A stretch of 8,779 nucleotides of DNA. It comes from Desulfuromonas sp. SDB (lineage in GTDB: Bacteria > SDB-A). Below, one piece after another: positions 1 through 8,779 of this stretch. A program made the position numbers and the translations under genes. Every line of letters starts with the position of its first letter. The first letter of the stretch is position 1. Below the pieces are notes generated by a model that worked only from the letters and a program-made list of their open reading frames with translations, was not told where the DNA came from and did not search any database. The stretch spans positions 1 through 8,779 of the forward strand of contig LKUE01000312.1 in the NCBI GenBank assembly GCA_001412365.1, read 5' to 3'.

Positions 1-483
1 AAATATTTTCAGAAAAGTAATTTTTTTATCCATGGATCGGCAATAATGCTCAAAAATAGATTAATTCTACTAATTGGAAAAAGCGGTAGGGGTAAAACAA
101 CTATCTCATATAAAGCAGCTTACAATGGTTTTAAAGTTCTCTCCGATGAAATGGTATTAATTGATTACCGGGAAAACACATTTTTTGCTCAAGGAACTCC
201 TTTTGGAAAAATTTCAGATGGACCACTTTTAGGGGAGATAGATTGTATTATGATATTAAAACAATCTTCTGAGAATTGTTTTAAATCAATAAGCGCGGTT
301 CAGGCATTTAGTTATGCCTGGAGCGACTCCTATTACCGGGGAAGAAAGATCTCTTTACAAAGAAAGAAAGAAGTTTTTAATAATATGTTTAATCTGTTTT
401 CAACTAAAAAATGTTATGAAATGGAATTCCGCAATGATTTCGATCAGTGGGATGAGTTGATCGAACTTTGCGACAAGCAATAA
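1..483 (+). CDS. HPr kinase-like P-loop protein (partial, 5' end outside window)
   Basis: The frame is open from base 1, so the ATG at 46 is almost certainly internal. The residues before it read F-I-H-G-S-A-I (about 25-45), the His-Gly element that precedes the P-loop in HprK-type kinases. Counting from the Met at 46, a Walker A motif GKSGRGKTT lies at residues 11-19. It is followed by an L-S-D-E-x-V segment (S33, D34, E35) at the place where HprK relatives carry an acidic SDD motif, so the second Asp is replaced by Glu. The visible part is too short for a full HPr kinase/phosphorylase and matches the shorter HPrK-like kinases found in lasso-peptide clusters, where one member phosphorylates the peptide. 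It lies 50 bp upstream of an ABC exporter on the same strand. Kinase fold is fairly sure; the substrate is inferred from context only. Confidence 0.72.
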   Translation, partial: KYFQKSNFFIHGSAIMLKNRLILLIGKSGRGKTTISYKAAYNGFKVLSDEMVLIDYRENTFFAQGTPFGKISDGPLLGEIDCIMILKQSSENCFKSISAVQAFSYAWSDSYYRGRKISLQRKKEVFNNMFNLFSTKKCYEMEFRNDFDQWDELIELCDKQ

Positions 484-533
484 CTGTCAATAAGACTTTT
501 TACTCTCTGAAATTTCCAGTATAGTATAAAAAG

Positions 534-2330
534 ATGAAAAAAATTAAGGATACACTGCATCTGTTGAAGGCAGTTAAATTAGTCTGGCAGAGCAGTAAAA
601 AATGGTTTGTACTAAGACTGGTAATCGTAGTCTTTCAGGGGATTTTACCTCTGGTTCCCTTATATTTAATGAAATTATTTGTAGATCAGGTGGCGGGTAC
701 GGTTAATTCAGCAGATATATCTGCTGGTTTTACAAAAATTTTGCTGGTAGTGGCAGCGATGGCTGTGGTTGCTTTGTTCTCCAGCGTAATCAACGCTTTT
801 TCAGGTTTTATAAGTGAAATTCAGAGCCAGGTGGTTACGGACAGGGTTTACGATATCCTGCATGCTAAATCACTGGAAGTAGATTTGGAATACTACGAAA
901 ATCCTCAATATTACGACACTCTTCACCGGGCTCAGCAGCAAGCTCCCTACCGACCCACCCATATTGTCAATGGATTGGTTCAGTCAGTTAAAAACATAAT
1001 ATCCATAATGGCAATTTCAGGATTGATACTTACCTTTAACTGGATGATCGCATTGTTATTGCTGGTGGCATTAATTCCTTCTGCGGTGGTTAAAGTTAAG
1101 TTCTCCGGAAAGATTTTCCGCTGGCAAAATCAGCGAACCAAAACGGAAAGAAAATCCTGGTATTACAATATGATGCTTACCCGTAATCATCATGCCAAGG
1201 AAATTAGAATTTTTCAGTTAGGAAAACTATTTTTAGATAGGTTCACCGAGTTTAGAAAAACTCTGCGAAGAGAAAGACTGATTTTGTTGGGAAAAAGGTC
1301 AATTGCGGAATCTCTGGCTCAGCTATTTTCCATGGCGGCTGTTTTTGGCGCTTTGGTCTATGTCGCTTATAGAACCATTCACGGAAATATTACCCTGGGA
1401 GACATGGTAATGTACTACGGCGCATTTCAACGGGGGCAGGGATATCTGGGGTCTTTTCTGACCACCCTGGCGGGGTTGTATGAAGATAATTTGTTTTTAT
1501 CTTATCTTTACGATTTTCTGGATATTAAGCCTAAAATTTCCACTCCTGAACAACCGGTAAAATTTCCCCCTGAAATAGTTAAGGGAATTAATTTTAACAA
1601 TATAGATTTCGGTTATCCCCACAGCCCCAGAAAAGCTCTTTACAATTTCAGCGCAGAGGTTTTTCCGGGGGAAACGGTTGCCCTGGTTGGAGAAAATGGA
1701 TCAGGAAAGACTACCCTTATAAAACTGCTGTGCAGGCTTTATTCGCCGGACCGAGGAGTAATAACTATAGATGGGGTGGATATAGGGAAATTTGATTTAG
1801 AGGAATACCGCAGTAAAATCAGTGTAATTTTTCAGGACTACGTCAAATATTTTTTAACTGCCAGAGAAAATATCTGGTTCGGCAATATTGACCGGGATAA
1901 GCTGGATGAAAATATTGTCCCTGCCGCCAGATTCTCCGGGGCGGGGCAGTACCTGGAAAAACTGGAAGATAAATATGATACCTTTTTAGGTAAATGGTTT
2001 GAAAAGGGCGAAGAACTAAGTGTGGGGGAATGGCAGAAAATTGCCCTGGCTAGGGCGGTATTCAGTAAAGCAAACATTCTGGTTTTAGATGAACCCACCA
2101 GTTCTCTTGATGCTAAATCGGAATATGAAATTTTTGACAAGTTCAAAAAAATTGCCGGCGAAAAAATTGTTTTCCTTATAAGTCATCGTTTTTCTACGGT
2201 CCGAATGGCGGATAAAATTTTTGTTTTAGATAAGGGCAGAATTATTGAACAGGGAACCCATTCTGAATTATTAGATCTTCACGGCAAATATGCCGAATTG
2301 TTTTCTCTTCAAGCTGAACATTACAAATGA
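534..2330 (+). CDS. ABC exporter, fused membrane and ATPase domains (probable peptide exporter)
   Basis: A 598-residue half-transporter of the usual exporter length. Hydrophobic stretches at about 25-47, 67-91, 153-187 and 261-312 make up the six-helix membrane domain. The ATPase domain starts near 350, with an FGY A-loop, Walker A GENGSGKTT (386-394), Q-loop Gln434, signature LSVGE (495-499, followed by WQK), Walker B ending in D519-E520 and H-loop His551. All catalytic residues are present. The signature deviates from LSGGQ; from memory LSVGxWQ variants occur in RiPP exporters. There is no N-terminal C39 peptidase domain, so any leader peptide must be removed by another enzyme, as in lasso-peptide systems. 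It should act as a homodimer in the inner membrane. The ATG at 534 has no clear ribosome binding site. The stop overlaps the next start by ATGA, indicating translational coupling. Exporter is certain; the cargo is inferred. Confidence 0.93.
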   Translation: MKKIKDTLHLLKAVKLVWQSSKKWFVLRLVIVVFQGILPLVPLYLMKLFVDQVAGTVNSADISAGFTKILLVVAAMAVVALFSSVINAFSGFISEIQSQVVTDRVYDILHAKSLEVDLEYYENPQYYDTLHRAQQQAPYRPTHIVNGLVQSVKNIISIMAISGLILTFNWMIALLLLVALIPSAVVKVKFSGKIFRWQNQRTKTERKSWYYNMMLTRNHHAKEIRIFQLGKLFLDRFTEFRKTLRRERLILLGKRSIAESLAQLFSMAAVFGALVYVAYRTIHGNITLGDMVMYYGAFQRGQGYLGSFLTTLAGLYEDNLFLSYLYDFLDIKPKISTPEQPVKFPPEIVKGINFNNIDFGYPHSPRKALYNFSAEVFPGETVALVGENGSGKTTLIKLLCRLYSPDRGVITIDGVDIGKFDLEEYRSKISVIFQDYVKYFLTARENIWFGNIDRDKLDENIVPAARFSGAGQYLEKLEDKYDTFLGKWFEKGEELSVGEWQKIALARAVFSKANILVLDEPTSSLDAKSEYEIFDKFKKIAGEKIVFLISHRFSTVRMADKIFVLDKGRIIEQGTHSELLDLHGKYAELFSLQAEHYK

Positions 2331-3541
2331 TACAAATTGTTGAAAAGATGTTGGATGTAATTAATGCTGTAGATAACTCAGTCTTTCTGTCTCTTTCCGG
2401 TCAAGAGCAAAAGAAAATTGTTGATGCAGCGTTGAAACATCAGTTGGGGGGAGTGCTGTATGTAAAATTACGCCCTGAAAATAAAAGCAGCCTGATTAAT
2501 AGAGATGTTTTTTATTTACTGGAAAGTTATTGGAGGACAAATGCCGTTAAAAATATGGTTTTATTTCATCAGTTAAAGGACATTCTAGAAAAATTCAGGG
2601 AAAATAAAATTAATTCCATGGTTTTAAAGGGAGCTTATTTTGCGGATAAACTTTATCCGTCCATTGGTTCCAGACCGATGTCAGATATTGACATATTGAT
2701 CTACCGCAAAGATCAAAAAAAGGCAGATGAGATTTTAACAAAAAGTGGATATTATTGCAGATGGAATAAAACCTGGATAGATAAGTTTCATTATCACTAC
2801 GGATACTTCCCTCCATTGAAAAATCAATTTTTCCTGGAAGTGCACTGGCTGTTGGCAAAACCGGAACCCTATTTCACCCAAAATATTAAAAATATCTTTC
2901 AAAGGGCAGAAGAATACGAAATAGAAGGGGAAAAAACAAAAGTAATGTCTCCGGAAGACCAAGTAGTTTACCTGTCCATTCATCATGCCTGGTCGCACTG
3001 TTTTAGTGTAAATCTAATTCAGCTTTTTGATCTGGTGCTGATCTTTGAAAAACTGGAGATTGATCTAAATAAATTAGTTGATATTTCAAAACAATATCAT
3101 GCAGAAAAGGCAGTTTACATAACTTTAAATGTGGTTAATAAACTGTTTATAAACAGCATTGATAGTAATGTTATAAAAAAGCTGGAGCCTGAAAATTTTC
3201 CCGAATACCTGAGCGTTGCGGCTGTGAATATTGTTTTAAACCGGCAGCAGGTTCTTAATACAGCTTTTTCGAGATTTATGTCCAGAGATAAAGTCTATCG
3301 CAAAGTTTTTTCATTAATCAAAAGTGTTTTCCCAGAAAGAAAAGTTCTTGCTGAAATTTACCAGCTGGATTCATTATCAAATGTTAACCTAATTCATTAT
3401 ATGCAAAGATTGAAGGATCTTGTGGTAAAATACAGAACTACCGGATTAAACTATGTTTTCAGAAAAAAGAATACCCGAAATGTTTTTGATAATGAAAGGA
3501 TCAAAAACAGAATGAGAAATTTTTTAATCAGTAATTTTTAA
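2327..3541 (+). CDS. Nucleotidyltransferase family protein (PF14907-like)
   Basis: A 404-residue protein with the hallmarks of the NTP_transf_5 family. An LKG element (K101-G102) is followed by a conserved segment ending in S119-D120-I121-D122, the DxD metal-binding pair of the Pol-beta nucleotidyltransferase fold. E171 and H173 in L-E-V-H-W fit the third acidic strand of the family. A helical C-terminal half follows, including an H-H-A-W stretch near 218-222. Family members are often found next to HPrK-like kinases, PqqD-like proteins and lasso-peptide exporters, but their reaction is not well established. The start codon lies inside the exporter's stop (ATGA), so the two are translationally coupled. 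It is the last gene of the + strand operon. The fold is well supported; transfer of a nucleotide to a peptide or to its phosphate is a guess. Confidence 0.82.
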   Translation: MIQIVEKMLDVINAVDNSVFLSLSGQEQKKIVDAALKHQLGGVLYVKLRPENKSSLINRDVFYLLESYWRTNAVKNMVLFHQLKDILEKFRENKINSMVLKGAYFADKLYPSIGSRPMSDIDILIYRKDQKKADEILTKSGYYCRWNKTWIDKFHYHYGYFPPLKNQFFLEVHWLLAKPEPYFTQNIKNIFQRAEEYEIEGEKTKVMSPEDQVVYLSIHHAWSHCFSVNLIQLFDLVLIFEKLEIDLNKLVDISKQYHAEKAVYITLNVVNKLFINSIDSNVIKKLEPENFPEYLSVAAVNIVLNRQQVLNTAFSRFMSRDKVYRKVFSLIKSVFPERKVLAEIYQLDSLSNVNLIHYMQRLKDLVVKYRTTGLNYVFRKKNTRNVFDNERIKNRMRNFLISNF

Positions 3542-6107: not shown

Positions 6108-6770
6108 TTATATTACAAAAAATAAAAACCCGAAAAAATGAGTTAAACTTCCTGTTAAGACAAATAAATGCCAGATGAAATGATTGTAGGGCATTTTCTT
6201 CCAGGCGTAAAATATTATACCCAAGGTGTATAATATTCCTCCGATAAATAATAAAATTGTCATTTTAGTGGGAATCATTTCCAGCATAGGTCTAAGTGCA
6301 ATGATTACCAGCCATCCCATGGCAATGTAAAAAACAACGGATAATATTTTAAGTTTTCCTAAAAGAAAAATTTTGAACAATATTCCCAGTACAGCCATTC
6401 CCCAAATTAATCCAAACAGAACCCACCCCCAGGTCCCCCTCATGGAAATCAAGGTAATAGGAGTGTAAGTTCCTGCTATCAGGACATATATAAAAACATG
6501 ATCAAAAATAAAAAAAACATTTTTAGCTATTTTATTGGTGAGACTGTGATAAAAAGTAGAAGCCAGGTAAAGTAATATTAATGCGCTGCCGTACACACTG
6601 AAACTTACAATTTTCCAAGGATCCCCTCTTTGGGCGGCAAGAACCACCAAGATAACCAAAGCGGCAACACTTAAAACCGCGCCGATTCCATGGGATATGC
6701 TGCTGGCTATTTCTTCTCCCAGGGTCTCTTGATGAGTCTGGGTATCTTTATCTGGTTCAGAGAACTTCAT
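6108..6770 (-). CDS. Hemolysin III / PAQR-family integral membrane protein
   Basis: A 220-residue, seven-helix membrane protein of normal family length. The conserved residues are present: E20 and H27 (E-x6-H-G), S71 and H75 (S-T-F-Y-H-S), D90-H91, the L-I-A-G-T-Y-T-P segment, and the H197-x3-H201 pair with H211 near the end. H75, H197 and H201 match the zinc site of PAQR/adiponectin-receptor relatives. The bacterial members are linked to membrane homeostasis; the hemolysin name is historical and says nothing certain about toxicity. The start overlaps the FAD-subunit gene by 14 bp (6757-6770) and has no strong ribosome binding site, so translation is probably coupled. Its place behind a molybdenum hydroxylase operon is unusual. 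Confidence 0.93.
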   Translation of the reverse strand: MKFSEPDKDTQTHQETLGEEIASSISHGIGAVLSVAALVILVVLAAQRGDPWKIVSFSVYGSALILLYLASTFYHSLTNKIAKNVFFIFDHVFIYVLIAGTYTPITLISMRGTWGWVLFGLIWGMAVLGILFKIFLLGKLKILSVVFYIAMGWLVIIALRPMLEMIPTKMTILLFIGGILYTLGIIFYAWKKMPYNHFIWHLFVLTGSLTHFFGFLFFVI

Positions 6771-7614
6771 CTGGGAAGCAGAAATGGTTATTTGAGTTTA
6801 TTTGAAAAATTATATTTGCCAGCACCTTAATTCGATAATTTGCGTTAGACCTTATATCGTCAATAGGGCTGATTTCCTGTGTTAAAATTTCCTGAATTTT
6901 CTCAATAGTCAATGGGGGTGCTTTAAACCAGCAATCTTCAACAGTTTTAAGTCTCATGGGGAAGGGAGAAACACTTCCCGCAGCGAGTTTAATTTCGTCA
7001 GCACAAATTTTATAAGCTAAATTTAACTTGCTTATAGTCATTGCGGAGCGAGTTCCGATTTTGATGAAATTTGAAAACTCCTTATCTCCTGCAGTATTAA
7101 ATTCAATTGAATATATAATTTCATCTGGTCTTATCTCTGTTTTTTTATAGCCGTGATAAAATTTTTCCACCTCAATTTTTCGAAAGCCCTCTGTGCTTAG
7201 AAGATTAATTTTTCCATCTTCCACCAATAGAGAGGGAATGGAATCGGCAGCGGGAGAAGCATTGGCAATATTACCAGCCAGGGTGGCTAAATTTCTAATT
7301 TGAACGGAGCCAATTGAAGATAATGCCTTGTACATACTGTCTGGAATTAATTTAGCATTCTGTTTAAACCGGGCATAATCAATGATTTTTTGGAGGGTAG
7401 TCAACGCCCCTATTTCAATATGTTCTGTTGATATGTTGATAAAATCCAAACTTGATTTCAGGGAATTCAAATTTATCAATACTTCAGGATGAAGAATACC
7501 TCGGTTGATAGAAGAAAATAAATCAGTTCCTCCAGCTAAAAACTGAAAAACTTTTTTTTCTTTGCTGAGTTTTTCAGTTAGTTCTTCTAATTTAACCGGA
7601 GTGTATACTTCCAT
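6757..7614 (-). CDS. Molybdenum hydroxylase FAD-binding subunit (CoxM/XdhB type)
   Basis: The FAD-binding medium subunit of the xanthine dehydrogenase/CO dehydrogenase superfamily. Counting from a GTG at 7626, A-G-G-T-D lies at 31-35 and the flavin-binding stretch T-L-A-G-N-x4-S-P-A-A-D at 115-128. A K-I-G-T-R-S segment lies at 189-194. A C-terminal CO-dehydrogenase flavoprotein-like domain with A-A-G-S-V-S-P-F-P-M-R-L follows. The total is 285 residues from the ATG at 7614, normal for the family. I prefer that ATG (M-E-V-Y-T-P, the usual family beginning) over the GTG at 7626 (289 residues), which has no ribosome binding site; the AGGA before the ATG is close at two bases. It overlaps the iron-sulfur gene by 23 bp. 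It should accept electrons from the 2Fe-2S clusters and pass them to NAD+ or another acceptor. Confidence 0.92.
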   Translation of the reverse strand: MEVYTPVKLEELTEKLSKEKKVFQFLAGGTDLFSSINRGILHPEVLINLNSLKSSLDFINISTEHIEIGALTTLQKIIDYARFKQNAKLIPDSMYKALSSIGSVQIRNLATLAGNIANASPAADSIPSLLVEDGKINLLSTEGFRKIEVEKFYHGYKKTEIRPDEIIYSIEFNTAGDKEFSNFIKIGTRSAMTISKLNLAYKICADEIKLAAGSVSPFPMRLKTVEDCWFKAPPLTIEKIQEILTQEISPIDDIRSNANYRIKVLANIIFQINSNNHFCFPDEVL

Positions 7615-8080
7615 TTTCCTGTTCACGGTATTTTATTGCTAACTTCACTGCCTCAATTATGGAGAGATATCCAGTGCAGCGGCATAAGTTTCCGCATAGA
7701 TACTCTTGTATTTTCTTTTCATCGGAATTCCCAAATTTTTCAATGTAGTAATAACTTGCCATTATAAATCCAGGCGTACAAAAACCACATTGTACTGCTC
7801 CGCAATCAATGAATGCCCTTTGAACGTAGTTTAGTCTTCCGTCTTTGCTGAGACCTTCTAATGTTACGATGGATGATCCATTGACTTTAATTACTGGAAT
7901 TAAACAAGAACAAACCAAATTACCATCTACGATGACCGAACAAGAACCGCACTCTCCTTCTCCGCAGGATTGCTTTACCGAGGTTAATCTAAAATCTTCC
8001 CTCAGTACATCAACCAGCCGTTTTACGGGATCTACCTCCACGGACTGCCATTGACGGTTAAGCTTTATTTTTATTTTCAC
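7592..8080 (-). CDS. Molybdenum hydroxylase [2Fe-2S] subunit (CoxS/XdhC type)
   Basis: A complete 162-residue iron-sulfur subunit. The N-terminal plant-ferredoxin-like domain carries C39, C44, C47 and C59 (C-G-E-G-E-C-G-S-C). The C-terminal helical domain carries C98, C101, C133 and C135 (Q-C-G-F-C-T-P-G and L-C-R-C-T-G-Y). All eight cluster ligands are intact, so both clusters can form. Translation starts at GTG (8080) with AGGA seven bases upstream (8088-8091). The start lies 23 bp inside the large-subunit gene. It bridges electrons from the molybdopterin site to FAD. The superfamily is certain; the substrate (purine, nicotinate, aldehyde, CO or other) is not shown by this subunit. Confidence 0.96.
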   Translation of the reverse strand: MKIKIKLNRQWQSVEVDPVKRLVDVLREDFRLTSVKQSCGEGECGSCSVIVDGNLVCSCLIPVIKVNGSSIVTLEGLSKDGRLNYVQRAFIDCGAVQCGFCTPGFIMASYYYIEKFGNSDEKKIQEYLCGNLCRCTGYLSIIEAVKLAIKYREQENGSIHSG

Positions 8081-8779
8081 TTTCCAGTCCTGATAAGATT
8101 TTTTCGGGAGTAATAGGCAGGGATTTAATTCTCACTCCCACCGCATCCGTCACTGCATTGGCGATAGCCGGAGGAAGCCCATCCAAAGGCAATTCTCCTA
8201 CTCCTTTGGCTCCAAAAGGTCCGTAGGGAGAAGGATTGTCAACGAAGTCAAGTTCAATTTCAGGCAGATCTTTTATGGTGGGAAGGAGGTAATCGGAGAA
8301 ACTGTTGTTCTGAATTCCTTGAAAATTCATTACTGAATTTTCCATTAGGCTGAAGCCAATTGCCTGGACAATTCCCCCAATTAACTGTCCTTCCACCAGC
8401 GGTTTGTTTATTAACTTTCCAATGTCACAGATCATCAGCACTTTTTCAATATGGACAGCATAACATATCAGATCTACGGTTAGCCAAACCAAATAGCCAG
8501 CCCAGGAATAATCTGAGTATGCATTTCCCTGGTAAGAGGCATCATCCCAGCGATGTCCTGAAGGAGATTGGTATTGCTGGTAGAAAACACCGGGTTGATT
8601 TGTGCGGAAGTAGTTTTGTACTTTTAGTTTGAATTCATCGCCGTTGTTGTATTTTCCTAAAACTTGTTTTACCTGCTCTGCTGCCCTCCTCAACAACTCA
8701 CCCACGATCATGGTGGTGCGAGAAGCTACGGTTGGTCCTGAATTAGGAACAAGAAGAGTGTTTACTTCAGTAAAAAATA
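8058..8779 (-). CDS. Molybdenum hydroxylase large subunit, C-terminal part (5' end outside window)
   Basis: The frame stays open through the right edge of the window, so the ATG at 8711 is internal. The residues before it include V-N-T-L-L-V-P-N and S-G-P-T-V-A-S-R-T-T, a typical piece of XdhA/CoxL-type molybdopterin subunits. The end shows G-G-I-V-Q-A-I-G, the L-P-T segment and G-A-K-G-V-G-E, whose Glu (codon 8193-8195) is the conserved catalytic base. The family is about 750 residues long, so only roughly the last third is seen. Substrate-pocket residues lie mostly outside the window, so neither xanthine dehydrogenase nor another member can be named. It is the first visible gene of the - strand operon, and more genes may precede it. 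Confidence 0.93.
   Translation of the reverse strand, partial: FFTEVNTLLVPNSGPTVASRTTMIVGELLRRAAEQVKQVLGKYNNGDEFKLKVQNYFRTNQPGVFYQQYQSPSGHRWDDASYQGNAYSDYSWAGYLVWLTVDLICYAVHIEKVLMICDIGKLINKPLVEGQLIGGIVQAIGFSLMENSVMNFQGIQNNSFSDYLLPTIKDLPEIELDFVDNPSPYGPFGAKGVGELPLDGLPPAIANAVTDAVGVRIKSLPITPEKILSGLESENKNKA

Follow-up and report, generated by a model that had tools for sequence, protein, structure and literature searches.

A kinase–exporter–nucleotidyltransferase operon as the probable tail of a split SynChlorMet RiPP cassette

To which biosynthetic system does an operon belong that begins with a truncated HprK-like kinase and continues with an exporter and a nucleotidyltransferase? The operon opens the window, the whole stretch of DNA that was analysed (8,779 bases), which is the entire contig C312 in the 433-contig, 98.7% complete genome of an uncultured bacterium. 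Its three genes are as follows.

1..483, + strand: K, HprK-like (ScmC-type) kinase predicted to act on a peptide Ser; the last 160 residues are present, the 5' end lying off the contig.
534..2330, + strand: D, MsbA-like fused ABC exporter without a C39 peptidase, 598 residues (Pfam ABC_membrane and ABC_tran).
2327..3541, + strand: N, PF14907 (NTP_transf_5) nucleotidyltransferase, 404 residues (PF14907, 4e-52); translationally coupled to D.

Fifty bases separate K from D, and the stop codon of D overlaps the start codon of N in the sequence ATGA. The open reading frames and domains thus confirm the preliminary description, which had recognized an HprK-like kinase, an exporter lacking C39 and a PF14907-like nucleotidyltransferase, the last two joined by ATGA. 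It had also placed the precursor and the maturation enzymes outside the window; this is correct, as the window is a whole contig that begins inside K. None of the other contigs of the assembly overlaps the window's first 150 bases, and the upstream side was therefore sought by comparison. At the other end (6757–8779), genes for xanthine-dehydrogenase-like FAD, FeS and probable molybdenum subunits run off the right contig end; they are unrelated to the operon discussed here.

Taken alone, K is weakly HprK-like (Pfam Hpr_kinase_C, 17 bits). Its Walker A motif (GKSGRGKTT), LSDE, GTPFG and the C-terminal CYEMEF (C-[YF]-E) align with those of HprK-like kinases, and a profile of such kinases matches the solved HPr kinases 1jb1, 2qmh and 1ko7 as well as PEPCKs. 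In N, the polymerase-beta-like acidic residues are intact, namely D120 and D122 (RPMSDID) and E171 (EVHW). Searching the PDB by sequence with N was uninformative, and an AlphaFold model built from two sequences was discarded at a pLDDT of 39. The related-locus search gave no match with N alone and a single one, a same-phylum MAG contig, with the alignment of the N family. Exporter matches to D on plasmids (Priestia lantibiotic, Deinococcus, Bernardetia, Phyllobacterium) were set aside as general ABC exporters. Separately, plasmid pCRI9333.04 of the cyanobacterium Crinalium epipsammum (L089/L020) carries a series of PqqD, N, HPr kinase, FkbM and glycosyltransferase genes with a D-N pair nearby; its D is 43% identical to that of the window, and the N adjoining its kinase has lost the catalytic acidic residues.

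SynChlorMet (SCM) was reportedly put forward by Haft and colleagues as a peptide system of the radical-SAM kind; it has hitherto been a name in HMM libraries without a product, and our search of the open literature turned up no paper on it. The system is represented in NCBIfam by the models ScmC (TIGR04249), ScmD (TIGR04248), ScmE (TIGR04250) and ScmF (TIGR04251). We consider it highly probable that K-D-N is the tail of an SCM RiPP cassette that was split by the assembly, with ScmE, ScmF and the signal peptidase/RRE on another contig (C335), the precursor in the gap, and K-D-N on C312. This assignment is made because of the gene clusters of relatives, the content of C335, the cassettes of two genomes of other phyla (G121 and G189) and the CxxG-rich precursors.

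The comparison within the phylum covered four genomes, that of the window and the relatives G001, G002 and G003; searches at class and phylum level give the same four. In two of the relatives, the orthologous kinase belongs to a cluster that also encodes two SPASM-type radical-SAM enzymes, a fusion of an archaeal-type signal peptidase with PqqD/RRE, and precursors with a YxxPxI leader. The order on contig C40 of G001 is an ScmE-like radical-SAM enzyme with an N-terminal PqqD domain, an ScmF-like radical-SAM enzyme, the signal peptidase/PqqD fusion, and then K between two precursors, of 98 aa before it and 96 aa after it. G002 matches this gene content as far as the precursors; its contig breaks before K, a fragment of which starts another contig, just where the window's genome is broken too. 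The window's K is 34% and 42% identical to the cassette kinases of G001 and G002 (the latter a fragment), and D is 40–42% identical to the exporters of the relatives. In addition, G001 and G002 each have a GAK system, unrelated to the cassette, with another HprK-related kinase (L116, G001:C31; L117, G002:C82); at L117, TIGR04355, TIGR04356 and TIGR04357 all exceed their cut-offs.

Contig C335 of the window's genome carries ScmE (408 bits; TIGR04250 cut-off 400), followed by a complete ScmF-like gene, whose G001 ortholog scores 325 against the ScmF cut-off of 400, and then by a signal peptidase (TIGR02228, 70.7; cut-off 51.85). The contig ends inside the signal peptidase gene, at a point after which K would be expected. 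Its G+C content is 36.6%, that of K-D-N 36.5%, and it is the sole locus in this genome with a PqqD match over the cut-off. The join between C335 and C312 is absent from the assembly and we infer it, the simplest reading being one cassette that broke at a repetitive precursor gene. At another locus (L102, G000:C114, 4710–5042), a gene for a small PqqD-like protein of 110 residues, below the Pfam cut-off, lies just upstream of a large secreted C25-type-peptidase-like protein and adjoins a kinase/sigma-54-type regulator.

To sample distant genomes, 386 diverse genomes were scanned with TIGR04250. ScmE is rare, matching in 11 of them, and all 11 contain a match to N. Outside the phylum, an A1-matching nucleotidyltransferase occurs in 7 of 7 ScmE genomes versus 85 of 382 (hypergeometric 2e-5, a figure uncorrected for kinship among the genomes). 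G121, also outside the phylum, has ScmF, signal peptidase (SpI), RRE (PqqD), precursor, K, D and N in one contiguous run, with ScmE divergent alongside. In G189, ScmC, ScmD, ScmE and ScmF all pass the NCBIfam cut-offs; a 55-aa precursor is encoded between ScmF and ScmC, and the signal peptidase and N follow ScmC. The ScmC of this genome scores 304 bits (cut-off 125) and is homologous to K. G047 combines ScmE, ScmF, precursor, K and signal peptidase with a D-like exporter, to which the window's D is 49% identical. Partial sets occur in G081, G090 and G079.

Precursor candidates were chosen for their position, their composition and a leader of the YxxP type. The 11 candidates (55–236 aa) all come from other genomes, none having been recovered from the window's own. 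They share the leader [YWF]xxPx[ILVAC], from which one candidate in G079 deviates at the last position. In the cores, 72 of 76 Cys fall in CxxG, often extended to CxxGxx[ANSTPV], versus 13 +/- 3.2 (maximum 25) in 2000 composition shuffles. The six candidates scanned against NCBIfam had no match. Among the four closest precursors, the only invariant Ser is that of a C-terminal GxSP.

The linear polyphosphorylated peptide (LPP) family, published in 2026, includes the kinase LppK and the nucleotidyltransferase LppN (PMC13381572). K-D-N could accordingly be read as an LPP-type operon (precursor, K, RRE, signal peptidase, D and N) devoid of radical-SAM enzymes, with the ScmE and ScmF genes of C335 forming a separate locus. 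The five core genes are indeed common to LPP, whose cloned operon likewise closes with D-N (PMC13381572). Nevertheless, we regard this as improbable: C335, the only PqqD locus over the cut-off in the window's genome, also carries the signal peptidase, and in the relatives and G121 ScmF, signal peptidase, RRE, precursor and K form one run.

The relatives also raise the question of whether D and N belong to the cassette at all. In G001–G003 the D-N pair lies apart from it, beside a lipoprotein gene and umuDC. In G003, moreover, the cassette has been deleted (L100, G003:C11, 7369–9205): ScmE is intact, ScmF is truncated to 147 aa, and the signal peptidase, precursors and kinase are gone, whereas D-N is kept on another contig. 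Since the pair outlasted the cassette there, D-N may have a second role outside it. A stronger version would hold that D and N, as exporter and transferase, serve a substrate of their own, a lipoprotein or something other than a peptide, and that K adjoins them by chance. The persistence of D-N without K in G001–G003, next to a 262-aa lipoprotein, and its survival in G003 would fit this version, which we rate as even less credible than an LPP-type operon, given that K-D-N is contiguous in both the window and G121 and that N co-occurs with ScmE across phyla. We note that the lipoprotein-like gene (262–287 aa) always precedes D-N in these three genomes (L010, L011, L012), and that the copy scanned has no Pfam match.

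Least probable of all is the tail of a paeninodin/pseudomycoidin-type lasso cluster with A, B1, B2 and C upstream: such clusters are known to include each of K, N and D (PMC8498205, PMC7533575), and a B2-annotated protein on a Deinococcus plasmid matches N, but we reject this reading because no B2 exceeds the NF033537 cut-off in the window's genome or its three relatives, the sole PF13471 match is an ordinary transglutaminase, and the radical-SAM cluster that holds the relatives' orthologous kinase has no B2. The lasso cluster with both kinase and nucleotidyltransferase that the preliminary description had proposed is thereby largely refuted; what survives of it is that the operon looks like the end of a RiPP cluster with kinase, exporter and nucleotidyltransferase, whose upstream machinery is most likely radical-SAM ScmE/ScmF together with the signal peptidase/RRE fusion. 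The plasmid protein, from Deinococcus psychrotolerans (L025, 5797–7137), matches N over its first part and is a nucleotidyltransferase-B2 fusion, with no evident lasso cyclase annotated nearby.

Returning to the SCM cassette, its chemistry can be approached through enzymes of known activity. In the LPP system, a Ser is (poly)phosphorylated by LppK, and the leader is cleaved off by LppS, which is homologous to signal peptidases; deletion of lppN in B. subtilis had no detectable effect; and radical SAM is unmentioned in the LPP text (PMC13381572). PsmK phosphorylates and PsmN hexosylates pseudomycoidin (PMC8498205, PMC9266682). The pairing of kinase and nucleotidyltransferase had been called poorly characterised, which overlooks that both PsmK/PsmN and LppK/LppN have been studied (PMC8498205, PMC9266682, PMC13381572).

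From the gene content and order, the conserved catalytic motifs and the precursor repeats, all of them observed in the genomes, we infer the following chemistry. The PqqD/RRE domains would bind the YxxPx(I/L) leader of the CxxG-repeat precursor, and the two SPASM radical-SAM enzymes would crosslink or otherwise modify its core. By analogy with ThcoK, PsmK and LppK, K would then phosphorylate, perhaps polyphosphorylate, a Ser, and N, judged by PsmN, may transfer a nucleotide or a sugar to that Ser phosphate. The archaeal-type signal peptidase would remove the leader as LppS does, and D would export the finished product. In short, we predict that the gene set acts on small cysteine-repeat peptides, from crosslinking through phosphorylation and further decoration to export.

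That SCM cassettes contain the tailoring and export module of LPP and paeninodin systems, with CxxG-repeat peptides as their likely precursors, appears to be new; our literature search found no paper that joins HprK, radical SAM and PqqD with the K-D-N cassette set. The likely precursors, together with the link to a biochemically studied module of kinase, nucleotidyltransferase and signal peptidase, make the chemistry of SynChlorMet directly testable, and SCM cassettes offer new systems for asking what enzymes of the LppN/PsmN type transfer. We would further give about an even chance to the broader proposal that the SCM cassettes of several phyla represent an undescribed RiPP class, whose products would comprise 2–20 CxxG units, be modified by radical-SAM enzymes, (poly)phosphorylated on Ser, capped by a nucleotidyltransferase-fold enzyme, freed of the leader by an archaeal-type signal peptidase and exported.

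How does the cassette compare with known systems? With respect to SynChlorMet as modeled, the likeness lies in the ScmE of the window's genome, which passes its cut-off, in the ScmF-like partner, the HprK-like kinase and the PqqD domains; the signal peptidase, the precursor and N are likewise present in G189, where all four models exceed their cut-offs. Unlike the modeled system, the window's phylum has the RRE fused to ScmE and, in the relatives, to the signal peptidase; the exporter and N come after K in the window; and the phylum's K, RRE and ScmF score under the cut-offs, the first two by a wide margin. The 160-aa fragment of K in the window has no match to ScmC, and its G001 ortholog scores 17 bits versus 125; for ScmD, the RRE half of the G002 signal peptidase scores 24.6 versus 100, the corresponding part in the window's genome lying past the contig end. 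K and the RRE also show weak similarity to the HprK_rel_A/PqqD_rel_X system (TIGR04352/TIGR04353), membership in which was rejected at 32 bits for K (NCBIfam cut-off 200) and 26 for the RRE (cut-off 35).

The paeninodin and pseudomycoidin lasso clusters share with the cassette a kinase (ThcoK/PsmK type), a nucleotidyltransferase (PsmN type) and an exporter; they differ in the B2 protease and the lasso precursor, which were not found for the window's cassette. The leader of the precursor candidates resembles those of both lasso and LPP precursors (PMC13381572). Tailoring by phosphorylation and NTP transferase may be a portable module common to lasso, LPP and radical-SAM RiPPs.

The likeness to LPP systems is extensive: an HprK-like kinase, an archaeal-type signal peptidase, an RRE, an MsbA-like exporter and an NTP transferase, with D followed by N and a YxxPx leader (PMC13381572). 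Homologs of all members of the five-component LPP set (HprK-like kinase, SpI, RRE, NTP transferase and exporter) were found in the window's genome or in the orthologous cluster. In contrast, the SCM set has two radical-SAM/SPASM enzymes, CxxG-repeat cores, a fused RRE and hosts other than Bacillota. Of the LPP leader pattern YxxPxVLxHQxIxFETxxS, the precursors of the relatives carry YxxPxI only. The LPP family is marked by a linear core and by the lack of further enzymes for primary modification; to the cluster described here belong two SPASM radical-SAM genes. In its gene content the cassette corresponds to the LPP core plus two radical-SAM enzymes; if the broader proposal of a new class is true, the LPP family would be the same module without them.
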